Below are positions 5,449-49,781 of a stretch of DNA of 64,000 nucleotides, one piece after another; within the stretch, counting starts at the first letter, position 1; each line of letters starts with the position of its first letter. The notes beneath the pieces are model-generated. The model was not told the DNA's origin. It worked only from the letters and a program-made list of their open reading frames with translations, and made no database searches. Origin of the DNA: Ramlibacter pinisoli (GTDB lineage: Bacteria > Pseudomonadota > Gammaproteobacteria > Burkholderiales > Burkholderiaceae_C); NCBI RefSeq assembly GCF_009758015.1, contig NZ_WSEL01000009.1, positions 2,033,501 to 2,097,500 of the forward strand, given 5' to 3'. Position numbers and translations under genes: made by a program.

Positions 5449-6459
5449 ATGTCGAATGCCCCACGCTACCCACAACTCTCACGGCGGACGGCGCTGTCCC
5501 GCATCCTCGCGGGCAGTGTCCTGGGCAGCGGCATGCTTGCCTCTCCGGCCAGGGCGCAGGACTTTCCCAACAAGCCGGTGAAGGTCATCCTGATGTACCC
5601 GCCGGGCGGCGGCGCGGACAACCAGGCGCGCGTCATCGGTGAGCAGTTCCGTGCGGCGACGGGACAGGCGATGGTGATCGAAAGCCGGCCGGGCGGCGGC
5701 GGTGGCGTCGCCGCCAATGCAGCCAAGGGAGCGCAACCCGACGGCTACACGCTGCTGAACGGCAATCTCGGGATGATGACGCTGACCCCGGCGTTGAACA
5801 CGGGCATCAACTACTCCGTCGCCGACTTCGTGCCGGTCGCCGCGATTTCCATCATCTATCCACTGCTGGTCGCACGCGCCGACTTTCCCGCGAGCAACCT
5901 CAAGGAACTGGCCGCACTCGCGAAGGCCAAGCCGCGCGAGATCAGCTATGGCACCTGGGGTCTGGGCAGCGTGCCGCACGTCGCCGGCGCATGGCTCGAG
6001 GAGGATGCCGGCATCCAGCTCAGCGCCATTCCGTACCGCGGCGAAGTGCCGATGGTCGTCGACCTGCTGGGCGGCCAGCTGCCACTGGGCTGGGCGTCGC
6101 TGCCTGCGGTGCAGCAGCATGTGAAGGACGGAAAGCTCAAGGTGATCGGCGTAGCGGCCGAGACGAGATTCACGCAATTGCCGGACACCCCCACATTCAT
6201 CGAGCAGGGCCTGCGCGGCTTCGCGATCCCCAGCTGGTTCGGCTATTTCGCACCCAAGGGAACGCCGCCCGCCATCGTGGCCGCGCTCAACGCGAAGATC
6301 AACGAGGCACTGAACACGCCGCACGTGCGCAGCCGGATCGAGGAGCAGGGGCAAGTCGTGCTCGTGCAGTCCAGTAGCCAATTCAACGATTTCATCCAGC
6401 AGAACGCTGTCCGCATCCAGCCGACCCTCACGCGGCTCGCGGCCACGATCCGGCAATGA
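5449..6459 (+). CDS. Bug/TctC-family extracytoplasmic solute receptor
   Basis: 336 aa. The ATG at 5449 is preferred over the ATG at 5434 because GAAGGAG lies 5-6 nt upstream of it. A signal peptide with Tat-like SRR (about residues 10-36, ending SPARA) precedes the mature start QDFPNKPVKVI. The fold is the two-lobed Bug family: the MYPPGGGADNQAR motif after strand 1 and the SRPGGGGGVAAN loop bind carboxylate ligands through main-chain contacts. These proteins deliver dicarboxylates or aromatic acids to tripartite tricarboxylate transporters or act as sensors. No TctA/TctB membrane genes are in the window, so this is an orphan receptor. Twenty-two bases separate it from the FAD oxidoreductase gene, which implies one operon. 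Confidence 0.88.
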   Translation: MSNAPRYPQLSRRTALSRILAGSVLGSGMLASPARAQDFPNKPVKVILMYPPGGGADNQARVIGEQFRAATGQAMVIESRPGGGGGVAANAAKGAQPDGYTLLNGNLGMMTLTPALNTGINYSVADFVPVAAISIIYPLLVARADFPASNLKELAALAKAKPREISYGTWGLGSVPHVAGAWLEEDAGIQLSAIPYRGEVPMVVDLLGGQLPLGWASLPAVQQHVKDGKLKVIGVAAETRFTQLPDTPTFIEQGLRGFAIPSWFGYFAPKGTPPAIVAALNAKINEALNTPHVRSRIEEQGQVVLVQSSSQFNDFIQQNAVRIQPTLTRLAATIRQ

Positions 6460-6481
6460 ATCCGTCCAACAGGAGATGTCC

Positions 6482-7864
6482 ATGAACCGGGTGGGAGACT
6501 GGGTGCAAGAGCCCGCGCAGAGCGTGCGGGTGGCGGCGCAATCCGATGTCGTCGTGGTCGGCGGCGGCCCCGCGGGCCAGGCTGCTGCCGTCGCCGCGGC
6601 ACGCAATGGCGCCAGCGTCACGCTGCTGGAGCGCTACAACCACCTGGGCGGCCTCGCTTCGGGTGGCATGGTTCTCGTGCTCGACGACATGTGGGACAGG
6701 CACCAGAACGAGATCTCCGTGCGGGGCATCTGCCTGGAGATGATCGAGCGCATGAAGGCGCTGGGCCTGGCCGAATACCCGTTGCAACACGAGTGGGGAA
6801 CGCTGCCGGAGTCAGTGCGCCGCTGGAAGCGCTGGGGAACCACCGATTTCCACAGCAAGCAGAAGCCCTCGCCCATCTGCTTCGCGGCCGCGTTCGATCC
6901 CGATGCGTGGAAACGGACTTCGCTGGAGATGGTGATGCGGGCGGGCATCCAGCTGCGGCTGCATTCGTGGTTCTCCAGGGCGATCGTCGAGGATGGGGTG
7001 GTCAAGGGCGTCATCTGCGAGACGAAGAGCGGACGCGAGGCGATCCTCGGCAAGGTCGTCATCGACGCGACCGGCGACCTGGACGTCGCGGCATCGGCGG
7101 GCGCTCCGCACATCAGCGGAAGCTACATCGCGACGACCGTCTTTCGCCTGGGTGGCGTGGACACCCGCGAAGCCGAGCGCTTCGAATTCGAGGAGCCCGA
7201 GGCCTATCGCGCGCTCGACAAGGAAGTCAAGCAGCTGCTCGGCGGCGCCTGGGAGTCGTGGTGGCTCAGGACGCCGCTGCCCGGCGTGGTGTGGTGCAAC
7301 TGCCCGCACATGGCGGGACTGGACGGCCTCAAGGTGGAAGACCTCACACAGGCCGAGATCCAGGGCCGCACCACGATCCACAACGTCATCGAGTTCGTGA
7401 GAGCGAAGCTGCCCGGTTTCCGCAACTGCTACCTGGTCGACATGGCACCACAAACCGGCATCCGCCAGACGCGGCTGCTGGAGGGCGAGTACGTCATGAC
7501 CAAGGAAGACCTGCAGGAGCGCACCCGCTTTCACGACGCCGTTGCCCGCGGCCGCGACTACTACTACCCCTATCGCAGCTTCGTGCCGCTCGGCGTGGAG
7601 AACCTCCTGGTCGCCGGTCGCCACTATTCGGCCACGTCGGCCGCCCAGAAGACGTCTCGTGAAATCCCGCCGTGCATGGCCATGGGCGAGGCCGTCGGCA
7701 TCGCCGCGACGCTCGCGCTCGACGCCGGCGTTTCCGTACGCCGGGTCGACGTCGCCAGGCTTCAGAGGACATTGCGGGCACAGGGAGCCGATCCGGGCGA
7801 CCAGCCGGGTCCGAACCCCGACGTTCCGGCGATCGCGCGCCCCTTCATGGAGGCGGTTGCATGA
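6482..7864 (+). CDS. FAD-dependent oxidoreductase
   Basis: 460 aa. The ATG at 6482 has AGGAG (6471-6475) at 6-nt spacing; the ATG at 6476 would be too close. The N-terminus has the Rossmann dinucleotide motif VVVGGGPAGQAAAVAAARNG followed by the acidic LLE. The C-terminus has a second FAD-contact segment (VENLLVAGRHYSATSAAQ) and CMAMGEAVGIAATLAL, typical of the FAD_oxidored/fumarate-reductase-like family (Pfam PF12831). There is no Fe-S motif and no signal peptide, so it is cytoplasmic. It probably oxidises or reduces the acid brought in by the Bug receptor. The LysR gene starts 25 bp downstream. Confidence 0.85.
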   Translation: MNRVGDWVQEPAQSVRVAAQSDVVVVGGGPAGQAAAVAAARNGASVTLLERYNHLGGLASGGMVLVLDDMWDRHQNEISVRGICLEMIERMKALGLAEYPLQHEWGTLPESVRRWKRWGTTDFHSKQKPSPICFAAAFDPDAWKRTSLEMVMRAGIQLRLHSWFSRAIVEDGVVKGVICETKSGREAILGKVVIDATGDLDVAASAGAPHISGSYIATTVFRLGGVDTREAERFEFEEPEAYRALDKEVKQLLGGAWESWWLRTPLPGVVWCNCPHMAGLDGLKVEDLTQAEIQGRTTIHNVIEFVRAKLPGFRNCYLVDMAPQTGIRQTRLLEGEYVMTKEDLQERTRFHDAVARGRDYYYPYRSFVPLGVENLLVAGRHYSATSAAQKTSREIPPCMAMGEAVGIAATLALDAGVSVRRVDVARLQRTLRAQGADPGDQPGPNPDVPAIARPFMEAVA

Positions 7865-42454: not shown

Positions 42455-42895
42455 TCAGCGCATCACCAGCGGGATGGTCACCGGCCCGTCGTTGACCAGG
42501 TGCACCTGCATGGCGGCGCCGAATTCGCCGGTCTGCACCAGCGGATGCGCGGCCCGGGCCCGGGCGACGAAGTCCTCGTACAGGCGCCGGCCCTCGTCGG
42601 GCGGCGCCGCGTTGCCGAAGCCGGGCCGGTTGCCGCCCGAGGTGTCGGCCGCCAGCGTGAACTGGCTCACCACCAGCAGGCCGCCGCCGGTGTCCTGCAG
42701 GCTGCGGTTCATCTTGCCCTCGGCGTCGCCGAAGATGCGCAGCTTGAGCAGCTTGGCCAGCAGGCGCTCGCCCTGCGGCACGTCGTCGCCGCGCTCGGCG
42801 CACAGGAGCAGCAGCAGCCCCGGGCCGATCTGGCCGATGGTGCGGCCCTCCACCACCACCCGGGCTTCGCTCACGCGCTGCACCAGTCCGATCAC
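42455..42895 (-). CDS. dtd: D-aminoacyl-tRNA deacylase Dtd
   Basis: 146 aa from a GTG at 42895, fixed by its 4-bp GTGA overlap with the upstream transporter gene. Removes D-amino acids (and glycine) mischarged on tRNA. Signatures: [14 protein letters not shown], the catalytic [17 protein letters not shown] and the Gly-cisPro motif NDGPVT. Convergent with ybeY, 36 bp apart. Confidence 0.94.
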
Positions 42896-43809
42896 AACGG
42901 GTCCTCCTCGTCCAGCAGGTGCGCCTCGACGTCCTGCGGCAGCAGCTGGATGCTGGCGCGCAGGCCGGGCACGGCGCTCATCAGCGCCTGCTCGACCGAG
43001 GCGCGCAGGGCCGCCGCGCGGCGCAGCGTCCATTCGGCCGGCATGTGCATGTGCAGGTCGACGAAGCGCCGGCTGCCCGAGCGCCGGGTGGTCACGTGGT
43101 CGAAGCGGATCGCCGGGTGCTCGAATCCCTGCAGCACCTTCTCGATCTCGGCCAGCGTGTGGCGGTCGACCCGCTTGTCCATCAGCCCCTGCGACGACGC
43201 CCACACCAGCGCCCAGCCCTCGCGCAGGATGTTCAGCGCCACGGCCGCCGCCACCACCGGGTCCAGCCACAGCCAGCCGGTGAGGGCGACCAGGCCGATG
43301 CCCACCACCACACCGGCCGAGGTCCAGACGTCGGTGACCAGGTGGCGGGCGTCGGCTTCCAGTGCCATCGAGCGGTGCGCCCTGGCCGACTGCAGCATCC
43401 CCCAGGCCAGGGCGCCGTTGCAGGCCGAGCTGAGCACCGACAGCAGCAGGCCGGCGCCGACCTGCTCGATGCCCTGCGGATGCAGGAAGCGTTCGGCCGC
43501 GGCCCACAGGATGGCCAGGGCGGCGACCAGGATGGCCAGCCCCTCGAAGAACGACGAGAAGTACTCGGCCTTGTGGTGGCCGTAGGGATGCTCGGCATCG
43601 GCCGGCCGGGCGGCCACGCGCACCATCAGCAGGGCGAAGGCGGCGCTGGCCAGGTTGACCAGCGACTCCATCGCGTCGGACAGCAGGCCGACCGAACCGG
43701 TGAGCCACCAGGCCAGTGTCTTGAGGCCGATGGTGAGCACCGCGACCCCGATGGACACGCGCAGCCAGACCCCGGGCGGGACGGCGCGTGCTCGGACGGC
43801 GAGGCTCAT
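42892..43809 (-). CDS. Cation diffusion facilitator transporter
   Basis: 305 aa from an ATG at 43809. Six TM segments. TM2 carries [12 protein letters not shown] and TM5 [16 protein letters not shown], giving the Asp/His set of the CDF zinc site (Ala, not His, opens the TM5 motif region but HLVTD is intact). A cytoplasmic His-containing C-terminal domain ([12 protein letters not shown]) completes it. Exports Zn2+, Fe2+ or Mn2+ by proton antiport. Coupled to dtd by a GTGA overlap. Confidence 0.88.
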
Positions 43810-43852: not shown

Positions 43853-45304
43853 ATGAGCTCACGCCTGCGTCCTCCCTGGCCGTGGCTGCTCGGCTGGCTG
43901 CTGCTGGCCGTGGCAGGCGGCTGGGTGCTGGCCGCGATCGACCGCGGCCGCGAGCGCGAGGCGTTCGAGAACCAGGCCCGCATCGCGCACCGCCTGCTGA
44001 GCCAGCGCGCCGCGCAGCACGATGCCGTGCTGGCCACCCTCGCCCTGCTGCAGCCCGCGCCCGGTGCCGACGGCATCCAGCGCCTGCCGGCGCTCTATCC
44101 GCAGATCATCGCGGTGCGGCAGTTGCCGGCCGGCGCGGCCTGGCCCTCCGACACCTTCCGGCAGGCGCAGGAGCTGTCGCGACGCGAGCGCCGGCCGGTG
44201 CTGGCGGAGGCCGACCTGGCCCTCGGCCGGGCCTGGCTGCTGCTGGCCGCCGAGCCCGCCAGCTTCGCGCTGCAGGTCGACCTGGTGGCCGCCGTGCCCT
44301 GGAGCGAATGGCCGATGCGGCGCGACGACAACCCGGTGCGGGTGGCGCTGGCGCAGGGCGACGCGGCCCTGGTGCTGCAGCCCGGCCGCGAACCGGCCGG
44401 CCGCGTCGGCGCCTTCAGCCTGCGCAAGCCGCTGGCGTCGCCCAGCCATCCGTTCGACGTCGTCGCCCTCCGCGTGCTGGGCTGGTCGGAGCTGCCCTGG
44501 CTCGCCTGGGCCGGCTGGGGACTGGCCAGTGCCGGCATCGTGGCCGCGCTGGCCGCCTGGGACCGGCAGCGGCAGGCGCGCCGCCGCGCCGAGGACCTGC
44601 TGCGGCTGGGCCAGGTGGCGCGCCTGAACACGCTGGGCGAACTGGCCGGCGGCCTGGCCCACGAGCTGAACCAGCCCCTCACCGCCATGCTGGCCAATGC
44701 GCAGGCGGCGCGCCGGCTGCTCGCCGAGGAGCCGCCCGAGCTGGCGCCGGCGCGCACCGCCATGGGCCAGGCGGCCGAGCAGGCCCGGCGCGCCAGCGAG
44801 GTGGTGGCGCGCCTGCGCCGCACCATCGAGCGGCCGGGGCGCGAGACGGCGCTGCAGCCGGTGGTGCTGCAGGACGCGGTGCGCAACGCGTTCCACCTGC
44901 TCGAGCCCGAGTTCGCCCGCCGCGGGGTGGCGCCGCGCCTGCAGGGCACGGTGCCGGTGGCGGTGCAGGCCGAACCGGTGGCGCTGGAGCAGATCGTGCA
45001 CAACCTGCTGATGAACGCGCTGCAGGCGCTGGAGCAGGTGCCGGCGGCCGAACGCGACCTGGCCGTCGACGTCGCGCAGCGCCCCGAGGGCGGCGTGCTG
45101 TCGGTCGCCGACAGCGGCCCCGGCATCGCGCCGGAGCTGCTGGCGCGCATCTTCGATCCCTTCGTCAGCACGCGCGAACACGGCCTCGGCCTGGGGCTGA
45201 GCCTGTGCGACAGCCTGGCGCAGGGCATGGGCGGCTCCCTGCAGGCCCAGCAGCGGCCACCGCGCGGCGCCCTGTTCCGCCTCACCCTGCCCTCGGCCGC
45301 CTGA
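43853..45304 (+). CDS. Membrane sensor histidine kinase
   Basis: 483 aa. Two TM segments (about residues 10-30 and 216-236) enclose a 185-residue periplasmic sensor region without a recognised fold. The HisKA box [15 protein letters not shown] has His270; the HATPase region shows [28 protein letters not shown] and GLGLGLSLC. FixL/NtrB-like kinase core. It is 4 bp from the response-regulator gene and shares a transcript with it. The periplasmic sensor could contact the secreted HbpS-like protein encoded downstream. Divergent from the CDF gene, 43 bp between starts. Confidence 0.92.
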
Positions 45305-45308
45305 CCCC

Positions 45309-45941
45309 ATGACCAGTCCCCTCGACACCCCTCTGGTCCAGCTGGTCGACGACGACCAGGCGGTGCGCGACGCGCTGGCGCTGCTGATCGGCACCATCGG
45401 CCTGCGCGTGCGCAGCTGGGCCGACCCGCTCGCCTTCCTGCGCGAGGTCGACCGCGAGGCCATCGGCGCCATCGTGCTGGACGTGCGCATGCCGGGCCTG
45501 GGCGGCCTGCAGGTGCTGGAACAGCTGGTCGCGTCCGGCACCGACCAGCCAGTCGTGCTGCTCACCGGGCACGGCACGGTCGAGATGTGCCGGCGCGCGT
45601 TCAAGGGCGGGGCGGCCGAGTTCCTGGAGAAGCCGGTCGACGACGACCTGCTGCTGGAGACGCTGCAGCAGGCGGTGCGCCAGCACGTGCGCTCGCGCGA
45701 GCGCAGCCAGGCCGACCGGGCGGCGCGCGAGCGCCATGCCCAGCTGTCGCCGCGCGAGCACGAGGTGCTGGCGCTGGTGGTGGAAGGCCTGACCAACAAG
45801 GAGATCGGCAAGGCCCTGGGGCTGTCGCCGCGCACCGTCGAGGCACACCGGGCCCACCTCTTCGACAAGCTCGAGGTGGCCTCGCTGGCCCAGCTGGTGC
45901 GCCAGTACGCCGCCCTCGCGGCGGGCGGCGGCACCGCGTAG
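45309..45941 (+). CDS. FixJ/NarL-type response regulator
   Basis: 210 aa. Receiver domain with acidic pocket VDDDQ and phospho-acceptor Asp58 (IVLDVRMPG), plus Lys in FLEKPVDDD. The C-terminal LuxR-type HTH has LSPREHEVLALVVEGLTNKEIGKALGLSPRTVEAHRAHLFDKL. Partner of the preceding kinase. A 20-bp near-perfect palindrome spans its stop codon and could be its own target, upstream of the HbpS-like gene. Confidence 0.94.
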   Translation: MTSPLDTPLVQLVDDDQAVRDALALLIGTIGLRVRSWADPLAFLREVDREAIGAIVLDVRMPGLGGLQVLEQLVASGTDQPVVLLTGHGTVEMCRRAFKGGAAEFLEKPVDDDLLLETLQQAVRQHVRSRERSQADRAARERHAQLSPREHEVLALVVEGLTNKEIGKALGLSPRTVEAHRAHLFDKLEVASLAQLVRQYAALAAGGGTA

Positions 45942-45963
45942 TTCTACGCGGTCGGTGGCGTAG
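45933..45963. promoter_or_regulatory. Operator candidate for the response regulator
   Basis: Perfect inverted repeat ACCGCGTAG-TT-CTACGCGGT at 45933-45952, followed by a third half-site GCGTAG at 45958-45963 that forms a second inverted pair with CTACGC. It overlaps the response-regulator stop and lies about 90-118 bp upstream of the HbpS-like start. LuxR-type regulators bind such short inverted repeats. It could also act as a hairpin, but no T-run follows. Confidence 0.6.
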
Positions 45964-46050
45964 CCGCCCGACTGGCGGTTCCGCCCCCCGCTTCCTACAG
46001 TGGCGGCACGGTTGATTCGCAACCGCCAACCACAACCAAGGAGCCACCGC

Positions 46051-46542
46051 ATGAAAGTTCTCCCCCTGCTGTCCGTCCTGGCCCTGTCCGCCGTTGCCAG
46101 CGCCGCCTCGGCCCAGGGCGTGCGCACGGAACGCAACATCTCGCTCGACCTGGCCAACCAGATCGCGGCCGGTGCCGTCGCCGCCTGCGCGGCCAGCGGC
46201 TACAACGTCGCCGCCACGGTGGTCGACCGCGCCGGCGTCGTGCGCGCCGTCCAGCGCGGCGACAACGCCGGCCCGCATTCGCTGGAGTCCAGCCGCCTGA
46301 AGGCCTACACCTCGGCCTCGGCCAAGAGCAACACCCTGGCCATGATGGAAGGCGCGCAGAAGAACCCGGCCGCGGCCAACCTGGTCAACATCCCCGGCTT
46401 CCTGCTGCTCGGCGGCGGGGTGCCGGTGCGCGTGGGCAACGAGGTCATCGGCGCGGTCGGCGTCGGCGGCGCGCCGGGCGGCAACCTGGACGAGCAATGC
46501 GCGGTGACCGCCCTCGACAAGGTCAAGGAGCAACTGAAGTGA
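46051..46542 (+). CDS. Secreted HbpS/GlcG-family protein
   Basis: 163 aa from an ATG at 46051 with AAGGAG 7 nt upstream. Signal peptide of 22 residues (ends ASA before QGVRTERN). The mature domain matches the GlcG/HbpS (Haem_degrading, formerly DUF336) family: NISLDLANQIAAGAVAAC, VVDRAGVVRAVQRGDNAGPHS and the C-terminal GVGGAPGGNLDEQCAVTAL. In Streptomyces, secreted HbpS binds heme and modulates the SenS kinase. Here it follows a kinase and regulator gene, and its stop overlaps the ankyrin gene by 4 bp (GTGA). Confidence 0.9.
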   Translation: MKVLPLLSVLALSAVASAASAQGVRTERNISLDLANQIAAGAVAACAASGYNVAATVVDRAGVVRAVQRGDNAGPHSLESSRLKAYTSASAKSNTLAMMEGAQKNPAAANLVNIPGFLLLGGGVPVRVGNEVIGAVGVGGAPGGNLDEQCAVTALDKVKEQLK

Positions 46543-47231
46543 AGCGCGCGCTGGTCACCTGGGTGCTGGCGCTGGGTGCGGCCTGCGCCACCCTGCCGGC
46601 GGCCGCCCAGGTCGGCCCCTCGGCGGCGGAAGCGGCCGCCTACACCGGGCTGCACGCCGCCGCGCACAAGGGCGACGTCGACAAGATCCGCCGGCTGGCC
46701 GCGGCGAAGGCCGACCTGAACGCGCGCGACGGCAACGGCCGCACGCCGCTGCACGTGGCGACCTTCGCCCGGCAGCGCGACGCGATCCAGGCGCTGGTGC
46801 AGGCCGGCGCCGCCATCGACCTGCTGGAGAACGACCGCTACGACGCCGTGACCATTGCTTCCGTCGCCAACGACGAGGAGACGCTGCGCCTGCTGCTGTC
46901 CCTGGGGGCCAGCGCCCGGCAGGTCACCAGCCGCTACGACGGCACCGCGCTGATCGCGGCCGCGCACCTGGGCCACGCCGGCGTGGTGGAGCAGCTGGTG
47001 CGCGCCGGCGCGCCGCTGGACCACGTCAACAACCTGCACTGGACGGCCGCCATCGAGGCGGTGGTGCTGGGCGACGGCGGGCCGCGCCACCAGGCCACGC
47101 TCAAGACGCTGGTCGAAGCCGGCGCCAACCTGCAGCTGAAGGACCGCAACGGCAACACGCCGCTGCAGCTGGCGCGCTCGCGCGGCTACACCGAGATGGT
47201 CCGGTTGCTGGAGGCGGGCAAGGCGCGCTGA
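46539..47231 (+). CDS. Secreted ankyrin-repeat protein
   Basis: 230 aa from a GTG at 46539, overlapping the HbpS-like stop; AAGGAG lies 9 nt upstream. Signal peptide residues 1-23 (LPAAAQ). Five to six ankyrin repeats follow (YTGLHAAAHKGDVDKIRRL, NGRTPLHVATFARQRDAIQAL, TALIAAAHLGHAGVVEQL, NGNTPLQLARSRGYTEMVRL). Ankyrin repeats bind other proteins; translational coupling suggests the HbpS-like protein is the partner in the periplasm. Similar periplasmic ankyrin proteins are paired with catalases in some pseudomonads. Confidence 0.9.
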   Translation: MKRALVTWVLALGAACATLPAAAQVGPSAAEAAAYTGLHAAAHKGDVDKIRRLAAAKADLNARDGNGRTPLHVATFARQRDAIQALVQAGAAIDLLENDRYDAVTIASVANDEETLRLLLSLGASARQVTSRYDGTALIAAAHLGHAGVVEQLVRAGAPLDHVNNLHWTAAIEAVVLGDGGPRHQATLKTLVEAGANLQLKDRNGNTPLQLARSRGYTEMVRLLEAGKAR

Positions 47232-47260: not shown

Positions 47261-48010
47261 ATGGGACTGGAAAAACGCGTCAAGGCCGCTGATCGCACGC
47301 TCGATCTGTTCGAAGCCTTCCAGAAGGCGGGGCGGCCCATGAGCCTGTCCGAGATCGCGCTGGCGATGGACATCCCGGTCAGCAGCTGCCACGGCCTGGT
47401 GAACACGCTGGTGTCGCGCGGCTACCTGGGGCCGGTCGGCGGCCCCAGGTCGTACTACCCATCGCGCCTGCTGTACGAACTCGGGCGCAACCTCCTCGCG
47501 CGGGACCCGGTGCTCTCCAAGGTGACACCCATCCTGGAGGTGCTGCGCGACAAGTGCGGCGAGACGGTGGTCCTGGGTCGCAGGCTGGACAAGTATGTCC
47601 AGTACGTCCATGTGCTGGAGGCCGCCAAGACCATCCGCTACACCGCGTCGGTGTCGGACCTTCGCTCGCTGCACTCCAGTGCATTGGGCAAGGCGCTGCT
47701 GGGCGCCCTCCCGGAAGAACGGCGCGCCGCCCTGGTGCAGACGCTGGACTACGAGCGCGTCACCCCCAACACGGTGCCCAATGCCAAGCGTTTGCTGGCA
47801 GACGTCGCCGCGGGCGAGGCGCGCGGGTGGCACATGACACAAGGCGAGAGCGTCGTCGACGTCGCCGCCGTGGCCAAGTGGGTGCTGCTCGGCGGCGAGC
47901 CCCACGCGGTCGCCATTGCCGGCCCGCTCAACCGCATGGCGCCCCTGATGGAGAAGCACGCGCGCCTGCTCACGGCCGCCAACACGGAGATGGCGGCAGC
48001 CACGTCCTGA
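47261..48010 (+). CDS. IclR-family transcriptional regulator
   Basis: 249 aa. Winged HTH at residues 8-65 (RTLDLFEAFQKAGRPMSLSEIALAMDIPVSSCHGLVNTL) and the IclR effector domain (YTASVSDLRSLHSSALGKALLGALP; AVAIAGPLNRMA). It is convergent with the SDR gene that ends the minus-strand acyl-CoA operon. A 26-bp element shared by the two divergent promoters of the island is the best candidate for its binding site. The effector is probably a carboxylate or CoA-derived metabolite. Confidence 0.93.
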   Translation: MGLEKRVKAADRTLDLFEAFQKAGRPMSLSEIALAMDIPVSSCHGLVNTLVSRGYLGPVGGPRSYYPSRLLYELGRNLLARDPVLSKVTPILEVLRDKCGETVVLGRRLDKYVQYVHVLEAAKTIRYTASVSDLRSLHSSALGKALLGALPEERRAALVQTLDYERVTPNTVPNAKRLLADVAAGEARGWHMTQGESVVDVAAVAKWVLLGGEPHAVAIAGPLNRMAPLMEKHARLLTAANTEMAAATS

Positions 48011-48019
48011 AGGCAAGAC

Positions 48020-48772
48020 TCAGTTCGAGTAGCGCCCGCCGGTCACGTGCAGCAGTTCACCGGTGATGAAGCCGGCGCGTTCGGAAGCCAGGAACAGCAC
48101 GGCATCGGCAATGTCGCGCGGCACGCCCAGGCGCGGCATCGGCGTCGCCTTGAGCCACTTGTCGCGGATCGCGTCGTAGTTCGCCAGGCTGCGCATCAGC
48201 TCGGTCTCGACGAAGCCGGGCGCGATCGCGTTGACCGTGATGTTGAACTTGCCCTCCTCGTACGACAGCGCCTTCGTGAAGCCGACCAGGCCCGCCTTGG
48301 CGGCCGAGTAGTTCGCCTGCCCCGGATTGCCCAGGTGCGCGCGTGACGAGATGTTGATGATGCGTCCCCACTTCTGGGCCATCATGTGCGGCACTGCAGT
48401 TTTGCTGCAGAGGTAGGCACCCTTGAGGATCACCCCGGTGACCAGGTCCCAGTCGGCCTCGGGCATCTTGGTCAGATAGTTGTCCTTCGGGAATCCGGCG
48501 TTGTTGACCAGCACGTGCAGGCCGCCGAACCGCTCCACCGTCTCCCCCACCAGCCGCTCGACGTCGGCAGCGCGCGTGACATCGGCGACCACGCCATGCA
48601 CGTCGAAGCCGTCCGCCTTCAGGGCCTGCGTGGTCGCGGCCATCGTTTCCGGATTGATGTCGGTCACCACCACCCGGGCGCCTTCCTCGGCCAGGGCGCG
48701 CGCCGTCTCGGCGCCGATGCCACGCCCCGAGCCCGTCACCACGGCAACCTTGTTCTCCAGTCCCAGCTTCAC
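48020..48772 (-). CDS. SDR-family 3-oxoacyl reductase/3-hydroxyacyl dehydrogenase
   Basis: 250 aa. NAD(P) loop TGSGRGIGAETARAL, NNAGFPK, active site Ser/Tyr/Lys in NISSRAHLGNPGQANYSAAKAG and the C-terminal VTGGRYSN. FabG-like. In this operon, after a dehydrogenase and a hydratase, it could oxidise the 3-hydroxyacyl-CoA. Last gene of a five-gene minus-strand operon starting at 51582. Confidence 0.88.
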   Translation of the reverse strand: MKLGLENKVAVVTGSGRGIGAETARALAEEGARVVVTDINPETMAATTQALKADGFDVHGVVADVTRAADVERLVGETVERFGGLHVLVNNAGFPKDNYLTKMPEADWDLVTGVILKGAYLCSKTAVPHMMAQKWGRIINISSRAHLGNPGQANYSAAKAGLVGFTKALSYEEGKFNITVNAIAPGFVETELMRSLANYDAIRDKWLKATPMPRLGVPRDIADAVLFLASERAGFITGELLHVTGGRYSN

Positions 48773-48794
48773 GTCAGTCCTCCTTGCGTTCGCG

Positions 48795-49781
48795 TCATTC
48801 GGCCGTGATGTTGGCCTTCTTCACCACCCGTTGCCACTTCTCCAGCTCGTGGCCCAGGTAGGTCGCCAGCTGTTCGGGCGAGCCCGGCGCCACCTCGACC
48901 CCCGCCTGTCCGAGGCGATCGATCACCTGCGGGTCGCGCAGGATCTGCCCGAGTTCCCGGTTCAGGCGCGCAATGGCCGCCGGCGGTGTCTGCTTGGGCG
49001 CGAACAGGGCGAACCAGGCCGACACGTCGTAGCCGGGCACGGTTTCCCCCACGACCGGCACGCCGGGAAAGCTGGCCGAGCGCTGGGCGCCGGTCAGCGC
49101 CAGTGCCCGGACCTTGCCCGAGCGGATGTGCGGCGCGGCCGACACGGCCGGCTCGATCATCGCGTCCACCTGGCCGCCCATCAGGTCGATCAGGGCCGGG
49201 CCGCTGCCCTTGTAGGGGATCTGCCGCAGGCTCACGCCGGCCAGGTCCTCCAGCAGGACACCGGCGACGTGCTGCGAACCGCCGTTGCCACCGGTGGCAT
49301 AGGTGACGGCCCCGGGCTGCTGCCTGGCCAGCGCGATGAATTCCGGGACGGTACGCGCCTTCAGGTCCGGCCGCACGATGAGCGCGAACGGCGTCGAGCC
49401 GATGTAGCCGACCGGCGCGAAGTCGCGCACCGGGTCCCAGGCGAGTTTGCGGTTGACCGCGGGGTTGATCGCGATGCTGCCGATCGTTCCCAGCCCGATG
49501 ACGTGGCCGTCGGCCTCCGCGCGCGCCAGCGCCTCCAGCCCGATGGCGCCGGTCGCGCCCGGCTTGTTGTCGACGATGACGTTCTGGCCCAGCGCCGCAC
49601 CGAGTCGCTCGGCCACGGTGCGAGCGACGATGTCGGTCGAGCCGGACGGCGGGAACGGCACGATCAACCGCAGGGGGCGGTTCGGATACACCGGCTGCGC
49701 CAGCGCAGTTCCGGGGAGCGTGCCAACGCATGCGGCGCCGGCAGTGAACGCGAGCAGGTCGCGGCGGGTCAGGTCCGTCAT
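48795..49781 (-). CDS. Bug/TctC-family solute receptor
   Basis: 328 aa. Tat-like N-terminus TDLTRRDLLAFTAG with a signal peptide ending ALAQ, then the Bug opening PVYPNRPLRLIVPFPPSGSTD and VDNKPGATGAIGLEAL. Periplasmic carboxylate receptor. Its ATG overlaps the stop of the upstream 37-aa ORF by 4 bp. No TctAB genes are nearby. Confidence 0.9.
   Translation of the reverse strand: MTDLTRRDLLAFTAGAACVGTLPGTALAQPVYPNRPLRLIVPFPPSGSTDIVARTVAERLGAALGQNVIVDNKPGATGAIGLEALARAEADGHVIGLGTIGSIAINPAVNRKLAWDPVRDFAPVGYIGSTPFALIVRPDLKARTVPEFIALARQQPGAVTYATGGNGGSQHVAGVLLEDLAGVSLRQIPYKGSGPALIDLMGGQVDAMIEPAVSAAPHIRSGKVRALALTGAQRSASFPGVPVVGETVPGYDVSAWFALFAPKQTPPAAIARLNRELGQILRDPQVIDRLGQAGVEVAPGSPEQLATYLGHELEKWQRVVKKANITAE

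Follow-up and report, generated by a model that had tools for sequence, protein, structure and literature searches.

A kinase–regulator pair clustered with genes for predicted exported HbpS-type and ankyrin-repeat proteins in Ramlibacter pinisoli, and a conserved putative operator at hbpS

The window analyzed here is a stretch of 64,000 nucleotides of Ramlibacter pinisoli (Burkholderiales; contig NZ_WSEL01000009.1, positions 2,033,501 to 2,097,500 of the forward strand), and our subject is a cluster of four neighboring genes within it, encoding a sensor histidine kinase (HK), a response regulator (RR), an HbpS-type protein (hbpS) and an ankyrin-repeat protein (ank). An earlier note, made from the sequence without database searches, had described these four genes and proposed that they form a redox-sensing system of the SenSR-HbpS type; the four genes were confirmed as described. 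The cluster consists of the following features:

43853..45304, + strand: HK, 483 amino acids; HisKA (E 6.5e-7) and HATPase_c (E 6.7e-22)
45309..45941, + strand: RR, FixJ-like; Response_reg (E 8.1e-24) and GerE (E 1.3e-20)
45937..45948: putative operator site 1, CGTAGTTCTACG, overlapping the TAG stop codon of the RR gene
45959..45970: putative operator site 2, CGTAGCCGCCCG, a degenerate CGTA-N4-TACG lying 22 bp downstream of site 1
45996..46001, + strand: -10-like hexamer TACAGT, exactly 25 nt past site 2
46009..46025, + strand: hairpin CGGTTG-ATTCG-CAACCG, found by eye, close to where the hbpS-ank mRNA is inferred to start
46051..46542, + strand: predicted exported HbpS/GlcG-fold protein (HbpS); PF03928 (E 8.5e-32)
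46539..47231, + strand: predicted exported ankyrin-repeat protein (Ank); Ank_2 (E 1.9e-33), GTG start

The RR gene starts 4 nt after HK, and its product joins a receiver domain to a LuxR-type (GerE) DNA-binding domain, the earlier note having called it a LuxR-type regulator. The start of ank overlaps the stop of hbpS (GTGA), and both products carry predicted signal peptides, read by eye (MKVLPLLSVLALSAVASAASAQ for HbpS and VKRALVTWVLALGAACATLPAAAQ for Ank). The HK had been described as a two-transmembrane kinase with an unrecognized sensor. In its AlphaFold model (predicted local distance difference test, pLDDT, 86.6) long helices at residues 9-66 and 216-291 flank a mixed alpha/beta domain, which is consistent with two transmembrane segments (~9-28 and ~216-238) around a periplasmic domain (~30-215; limits set by eye on the model), followed by a HisKA/HATPase_c core with the H-box AHELNQPL (H270). 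The modeled sensor combines a single long helix with blocks of mixed alpha/beta structure. When 46 sensor sequences were compared with Pfam, NCBIfam and PDB for a match to a known periplasmic sensor family (Cache, CHASE, PAS, 4HB), the best E values were 0.014, 0.03 and 0.31, respectively, all to unrelated families, and Foldseek/VIA-align matches of the model covered the kinase core only. A sensor profile searched class-wide matched 2 of 369 genomes, with at most nine candidates scored per genome and the divergent version in genome G128 missed. Altogether 65 kinase sequences and 26 of 83 HbpS sequences entered the structure predictions.

The best NCBIfam matches were FixL for HK and FixJ for RR, and the models that came next included TtrS and TtrR, although the curated cut-offs were missed in each case (FixL 127.1 against 850, FixJ 189.9 against 255, TtrS and TtrR likewise below). 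HK scored 29.8 bits for HisKA (cut-off 26.9) and 16.2 bits for HisKA_3 (cut-off 24). Of the suggestion that the kinase is of the FixL/NtrB type, the HisKA class and FixL as the nearest NCBIfam match stand, whereas membership of FixL/FixJ does not, the cut-offs being missed and no PAS domain being found in HK, which differs from FixL and TtrS in having a periplasmic sensor instead.

The conservation of this arrangement was examined in three samples: 150 genomes of the family, from 141 genera (10 or up to 24 candidates scored per genome); 300 genomes of the order (up to 12 per genome); and the best 80 of 168 HbpS relatives in named genomes, which are best matches and not a random draw. Ank was matched in 41 of the 150 family genomes, and in 32 of these the identity was at least 65%. 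These 32 comprise 21 genomes (R. pinisoli included) that hold all four genes together, one without hbpS (G134), one in which hbpS-ank lies apart from HK-RR (G133), eight in which the sequence retrieved contains ank but not the other three, and one (G118) with ank at a contig edge and HK-RR-HbpS on another contig. Among the 80 named loci, all four genes were present in 69 and RR in 77; this count drops HK, RR and Ank matches below 45% identity, and L148 and L162 are scored as lacking HK though it was found at a 40% cut-off. The named carriers include Acidovorax, Polaromonas, Ramlibacter, Hydrogenophaga, Rhodoferax, Rubrivivax, Ideonella, Thauera and Uliginosibacterium. Clustering of open reading frames (ORFs) in these 80 loci revealed no further operon member in most of them, downstream families reaching at most 27 of the 80 with antisense ORFs included.

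Across the order, HbpS was matched in 23 of 300 genomes and the unit is present in several families. HK-RR lies directly upstream in all 17 of the other order HbpS relatives with at least 54% identity (three of which, G114, G020 and G128, also belong to the family set) and in none of the six weaker matches. Within the 1.5 kb fetched downstream, ank was absent from 8 of these 17 loci (L232, L238-L244), so that HK-RR-HbpS looks like the core and the ankyrin gene, on these comparisons, is an optional member. Kinase and HbpS also occur together at the level of whole genomes: 28 of the 150 family genomes were kinase-positive (E<=1e-60), and HbpS at 58% identity or more was found in 26 of these and in no kinase-negative genome. 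G134 and G110 are the two that have the kinase but lack hbpS. When the HbpS cut-off was relaxed to E<=1e-25, an HbpS of 34-54% identity appeared in six kinase-negative genomes, one of which, G128, has a divergent HK-RR pair beside it. The comparisons therefore establish the clustering and co-occurrence of the genes, and the synteny of hbpS with the kinase pair, on which the earlier note had made its proposal depend, is kept in relatives while ank is missing from some.

Alignment of the region upstream of hbpS revealed a conserved block consisting of CTCCGTAGTTCTACGGAG, six variable bases and GCGTAGCCGTACGAATGG, followed by the TACAGT box; in the window this reads CGTAGTTCTACG, ten bases, CGTAGCCGCCCG, 25 bases and TACAGT. 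A 42-bp matrix built from 22 family sites (some, for example L142, L145 and L159, lie in both the training genomes and the 80 named loci) gave 76 of the 80 named loci a score of 26 bits or higher (L166 gave -14.8). The best other score in 1.8 Mb (both strands) was 15.9, and only two other places in the 80 loci reached 12 bits. In all 77 named loci scoring at least 12 bits, a -10-like box lies exactly 25 nt past site 2 (offsets of 20-30 were searched), its sequence being TACAGT in 56 loci and TAAAGT in 16, which fixes the distance between operator and box across the set. If this box is taken as the -10 element, the two sites are centered at about -65 and -43, overlapping the -35 region in the position of a class-II activator, and this geometry of operator and promoter strongly suggests that RR activates hbpS. 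Downstream of the box, the hairpin arms vary by lineage yet are often complementary, with at least 5 bp in 45 of the 65 loci among L111-L190 with a recognized box, against a mean of 11.6 and a maximum of 20 in 50 shuffles; RNAalifold gave no hairpin consensus in 36 sequences, in which loop lengths differ.

The operator was largely confined to this one place. The exact core, CGTAGNNCTACG-N10-CGTA, matched in 22 of the 150 family genomes, all kinase-positive and all 22 at the hbpS locus, with one overlapping palindromic match in G105, whereas the 17 matches to a reversed-pattern control were scattered. The remaining kinase-positive genomes scored 49.3 (G020), 44.3 (G118), 40.8 (G074), 33.9 (G143) and 26.7 bits (G076) at hbpS, and G110 had none. 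At the stringency searched, the operator is thus restricted to the hbpS promoter.

Rearranged loci serve as natural tests of what the operator belongs to. The gap between RR and hbpS has a median of 130 bp in 77 loci, and in the five loci with 1.0-2.2 kb of extra DNA in this gap (L157, L180, L181, L182 and L187) the operator remains at hbpS; called ORFs occur in the insert of L182 and L187 only and are of different kinds. In two genomes where hbpS-ank lies apart from HK-RR, G133 (by ~8 kb) and Acidovorax sp. sic0104, the operator is found at hbpS and not at HK-RR, and in G134, where hbpS is missing but HK, RR, operator and ank are all retained, the operator precedes ank. No operator was found at the eight ank-only loci, nor in Simplicispira metamorpha, where hbpS stands without HK, RR or ank beside it and whose genome (completeness unstated) gave no kinase match at E<=1e-30. 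Because the operator is confined to this locus and goes with hbpS(-ank), we read hbpS-ank as the main, perhaps the only, target of RR. The divergent trio of G128 (L205 2603-5378), whose kinase core, RR and HbpS are 40%, 43% and 55% identical to those of the window, carries the palindrome GGTA-GGAT-TACC with the same 10/12/25 layout and box (layout read by eye); an altered palindrome beside a divergent RR is what would be expected if regulator and site had changed together, and their co-evolution is possible. These loci also bear on the idea that the genes are neighbors by chance, through conserved chromosome order. PhoH, YbeY and a cation-efflux gene do lie upstream in part of the family, but the efflux gene is directly upstream in just 29 of 72 kinase loci, elsewhere in 3 and absent in 38 for which at least 1 kb of upstream sequence was available; with the unit in several families of the order and the operator following hbpS away from HK-RR, we regard a chance neighborhood as very improbable and largely refuted.

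Taken together, these results lead us to consider it likely that the cluster forms a dedicated two-component circuit running from a periplasmic cue through HK and RR to hbpS-ank as a homeostatic loop. HK would read the cue through its sensor domain, which matches no described family, and would phosphorylate the FixJ-like RR; RR would then bind the two tandem CGTA-N4-TACG sites (centers ~-65 and ~-43) and turn on a single promoter, that of hbpS-ank; and the exported HbpS and Ank would bind, bury or repair whatever HK detects, thereby closing the loop. Homeostatic protection would be the role we prefer for HbpS and Ank, and damping of HK by HbpS may occur but would be secondary.

A number of points weigh against this reading. 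Related genomes are not independent, and the loci were selected because their products resemble HbpS or Ank. Since the matrix has the 22-bp spacing built in, sites spaced otherwise necessarily receive low scores. Among the named loci, L148, L112 and L162 score low (16.5, 1.2 and 6.3 bits), with the first palindrome visible and the rest altered, and four of the 17 order loci with HK-RR (L231, L236, L242 and L244) score below 1, palindromic variants being visible in L231, L242 and L244. G110 keeps a 43%-identical kinase without hbpS and shows no operator in the stretch fetched. Activation rather than repression by RR would follow from the position of the sites only. Finally, RR might act on many genes, using sites that are single or degenerate, with hbpS-ank simply having the best of them. 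Site 2 is indeed degenerate in many named loci, and the 5.5-Mb genome of R. pinisoli holds, besides one perfect single site (CGTAGTTCTACG), 15 with one mismatch; these compare, however, with 71 in the reversed control, and the double site occurs there once perfectly, never with one mismatch and 12 times with two, against 88 in the control. In composition both controls depart from the true pattern. Given also the scarcity of further matrix matches in the named loci, we judge a broad regulon improbable.

The relation to the Streptomyces system was assessed through both its regulatory proteins and its ligand-binding residues. SenS is of the HisKA_3 type and SenR is NarL-like; the present cluster resembles that system in having an exported HbpS-fold protein adjoining a two-component pair, and differs in its HisKA kinase with another sensor, its FixJ-like regulator, its Sec-like (by eye) rather than Tat signal and its added ankyrin protein. 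The HbpS assignment is secured by the PF03928 match above cut-off and by the fold, the model (pLDDT 71.3) being closest to S. reticuli HbpS. In Streptomyces HbpS, Thr-113 is reported as the heme site and E78xxE81 as the iron motif (PMC3754957). In a comparison of 83 sequences (the window, the 80 named loci, L092 and L095), the Thr-113 position is F117 in the window and Phe in 46 and Tyr in 37 sequences overall, while the iron motif corresponds to E79/R82 in the window, with the acidic pair in none of the 83 and the E81 position acidic only in L139. K108 is kept in 2 of 83. Heme or iron sensing as in Streptomyces is thereby weakened. Cysteines C46 and C150 are invariant in all 83 sequences, and a disulfide between them is possible. 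Four further PF03928 genes lie in the R. pinisoli genome, at C3:314649, C3:2201770, C9:1080765 and C9:1670859, and that at C9:1080765 encodes a product 37% identical to this HbpS with both cysteines present.

SenR is reported to activate hbpS as well in Streptomyces (PMC3754957, PMC4991794), an action of the regulator on hbpS that we here propose from sequence; the operators differ, being CGTAGTTCTACG here and the SenRc repeat CGGGCCGCGTCCCG there. In PMC4991794, hbpS-like genes are described as clustered with senS-senR only in a number of actinobacteria. SenSR-like wiring, a two-component system plus HbpS clustered in relatives, is the part of the original proposal that is well supported, whereas the cluster is not to be filed as a member of HbpS-SenS-SenR, because kinase and regulator are of other families, the operator is another and the heme and iron residues are not kept. 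A literature search, with most subscription journals outside its reach, found no description of an HK-RR-hbpS-ank cluster, in agreement with the earlier note, which knew of no betaproteobacterial example.

The shared gene logic, in which SenR likewise is reported to activate hbpS, raises the alternative that HbpS, besides being the target of RR, also serves as an indispensable accessory sensor, binding the periplasmic domain of HK and setting its activity as it does for SenS in Streptomyces. The near-perfect co-occurrence of kinase and HbpS would fit such gating, as would the HK-RR-HbpS trio at loci where no ank was seen. G134, however, retains the rest of the unit without hbpS; the sensor is less conserved than HbpS (mean pairwise identity 0.53 against 0.82 in the same 62 loci and the window); and the Streptomyces heme and iron residues are not kept. 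We regard gating as the less likely reading. A second alternative concerns the ligand: HbpS might bind a small carbonyl or other organic compound, as the related formaldehyde-binding EfgA does, and the circuit would answer to that compound instead of redox stress, heme or iron. All 83 sequences retain K83 and D143 (K84 and D147 in the window), but PMC3754957 reports them kept across all HbpS-like proteins, so that they do not discriminate; their equation with EfgA K57/D121 was made by reading and not by residue-level alignment, and the Ser position appears to be Gly here. We hold such a ligand to be unlikely. In the descriptions consulted, EfgA, NahX, PduOC and OrfY (DUF336/PF03928) also differ from the present protein in not being tied to a two-component pair, EfgA being cytoplasmic.

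Beside the homeostatic circuit that we prefer, it is conceivable, but in our view doubtful, that the cluster is a betaproteobacterial three-component sensory loop convergent with that of Streptomyces SenSR. An HbpS oligomer, joined in many lineages by an ankyrin partner, would then be the sole transcriptional output and at once the ligand-loaded co-receptor of a kinase whose sensor fold is new, and the ligand would be something other than heme or iron. Across many betaproteobacteria an HbpS-type gene appears tied to an HK-RR pair from families other than those of SenS and SenR, and its operator is defined. Should this be confirmed, HbpS would have been wired to a two-component system a second time, apparently independently; the regulon, nearly limited to one promoter, would be easy to test, the kinase sensor would be one that matches no family, and there would be a route to what HbpS/DUF336 proteins sense in general.

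For the ankyrin protein, a likeness exists to AnkB of Pseudomonas, an exported ankyrin-repeat protein of the periplasm that is reported to be needed for KatB (PMC7567364, PMC2830190); the difference is that no catalase gene lies beside ank in R. pinisoli. An AnkB-like catalase link was considered and rejected, the PF00199 genes of this genome lying at C9:959896, C3:2127475 and C7:69371 and the locus at C9:2079551. In G147 the place of ank after hbpS is taken by a gene for an outer-membrane beta-barrel protein (L095 2116-2817, OMP_b-brl), and in Comamonas odontotermitis by a gene that looks similar by eye (L156 ~6450-7160).

On either side of the cluster, the window holds a cation-efflux (CDF) gene at 42895-43809 on the - strand, divergent from HK, and, at 47261-49781, an IclR regulator gene 30 bp after ank followed by SDR and TctC-type receptor genes on the opposite strand. 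No match to IclR was shown in the relatives' loci of the family and named sets, so this neighborhood looks lineage-specific. One of the named loci, L186, comes from a metagenome-assembled genome labeled Bordetella parapertussis, a name that looks doubtful; its version of the unit is an ordinary one.

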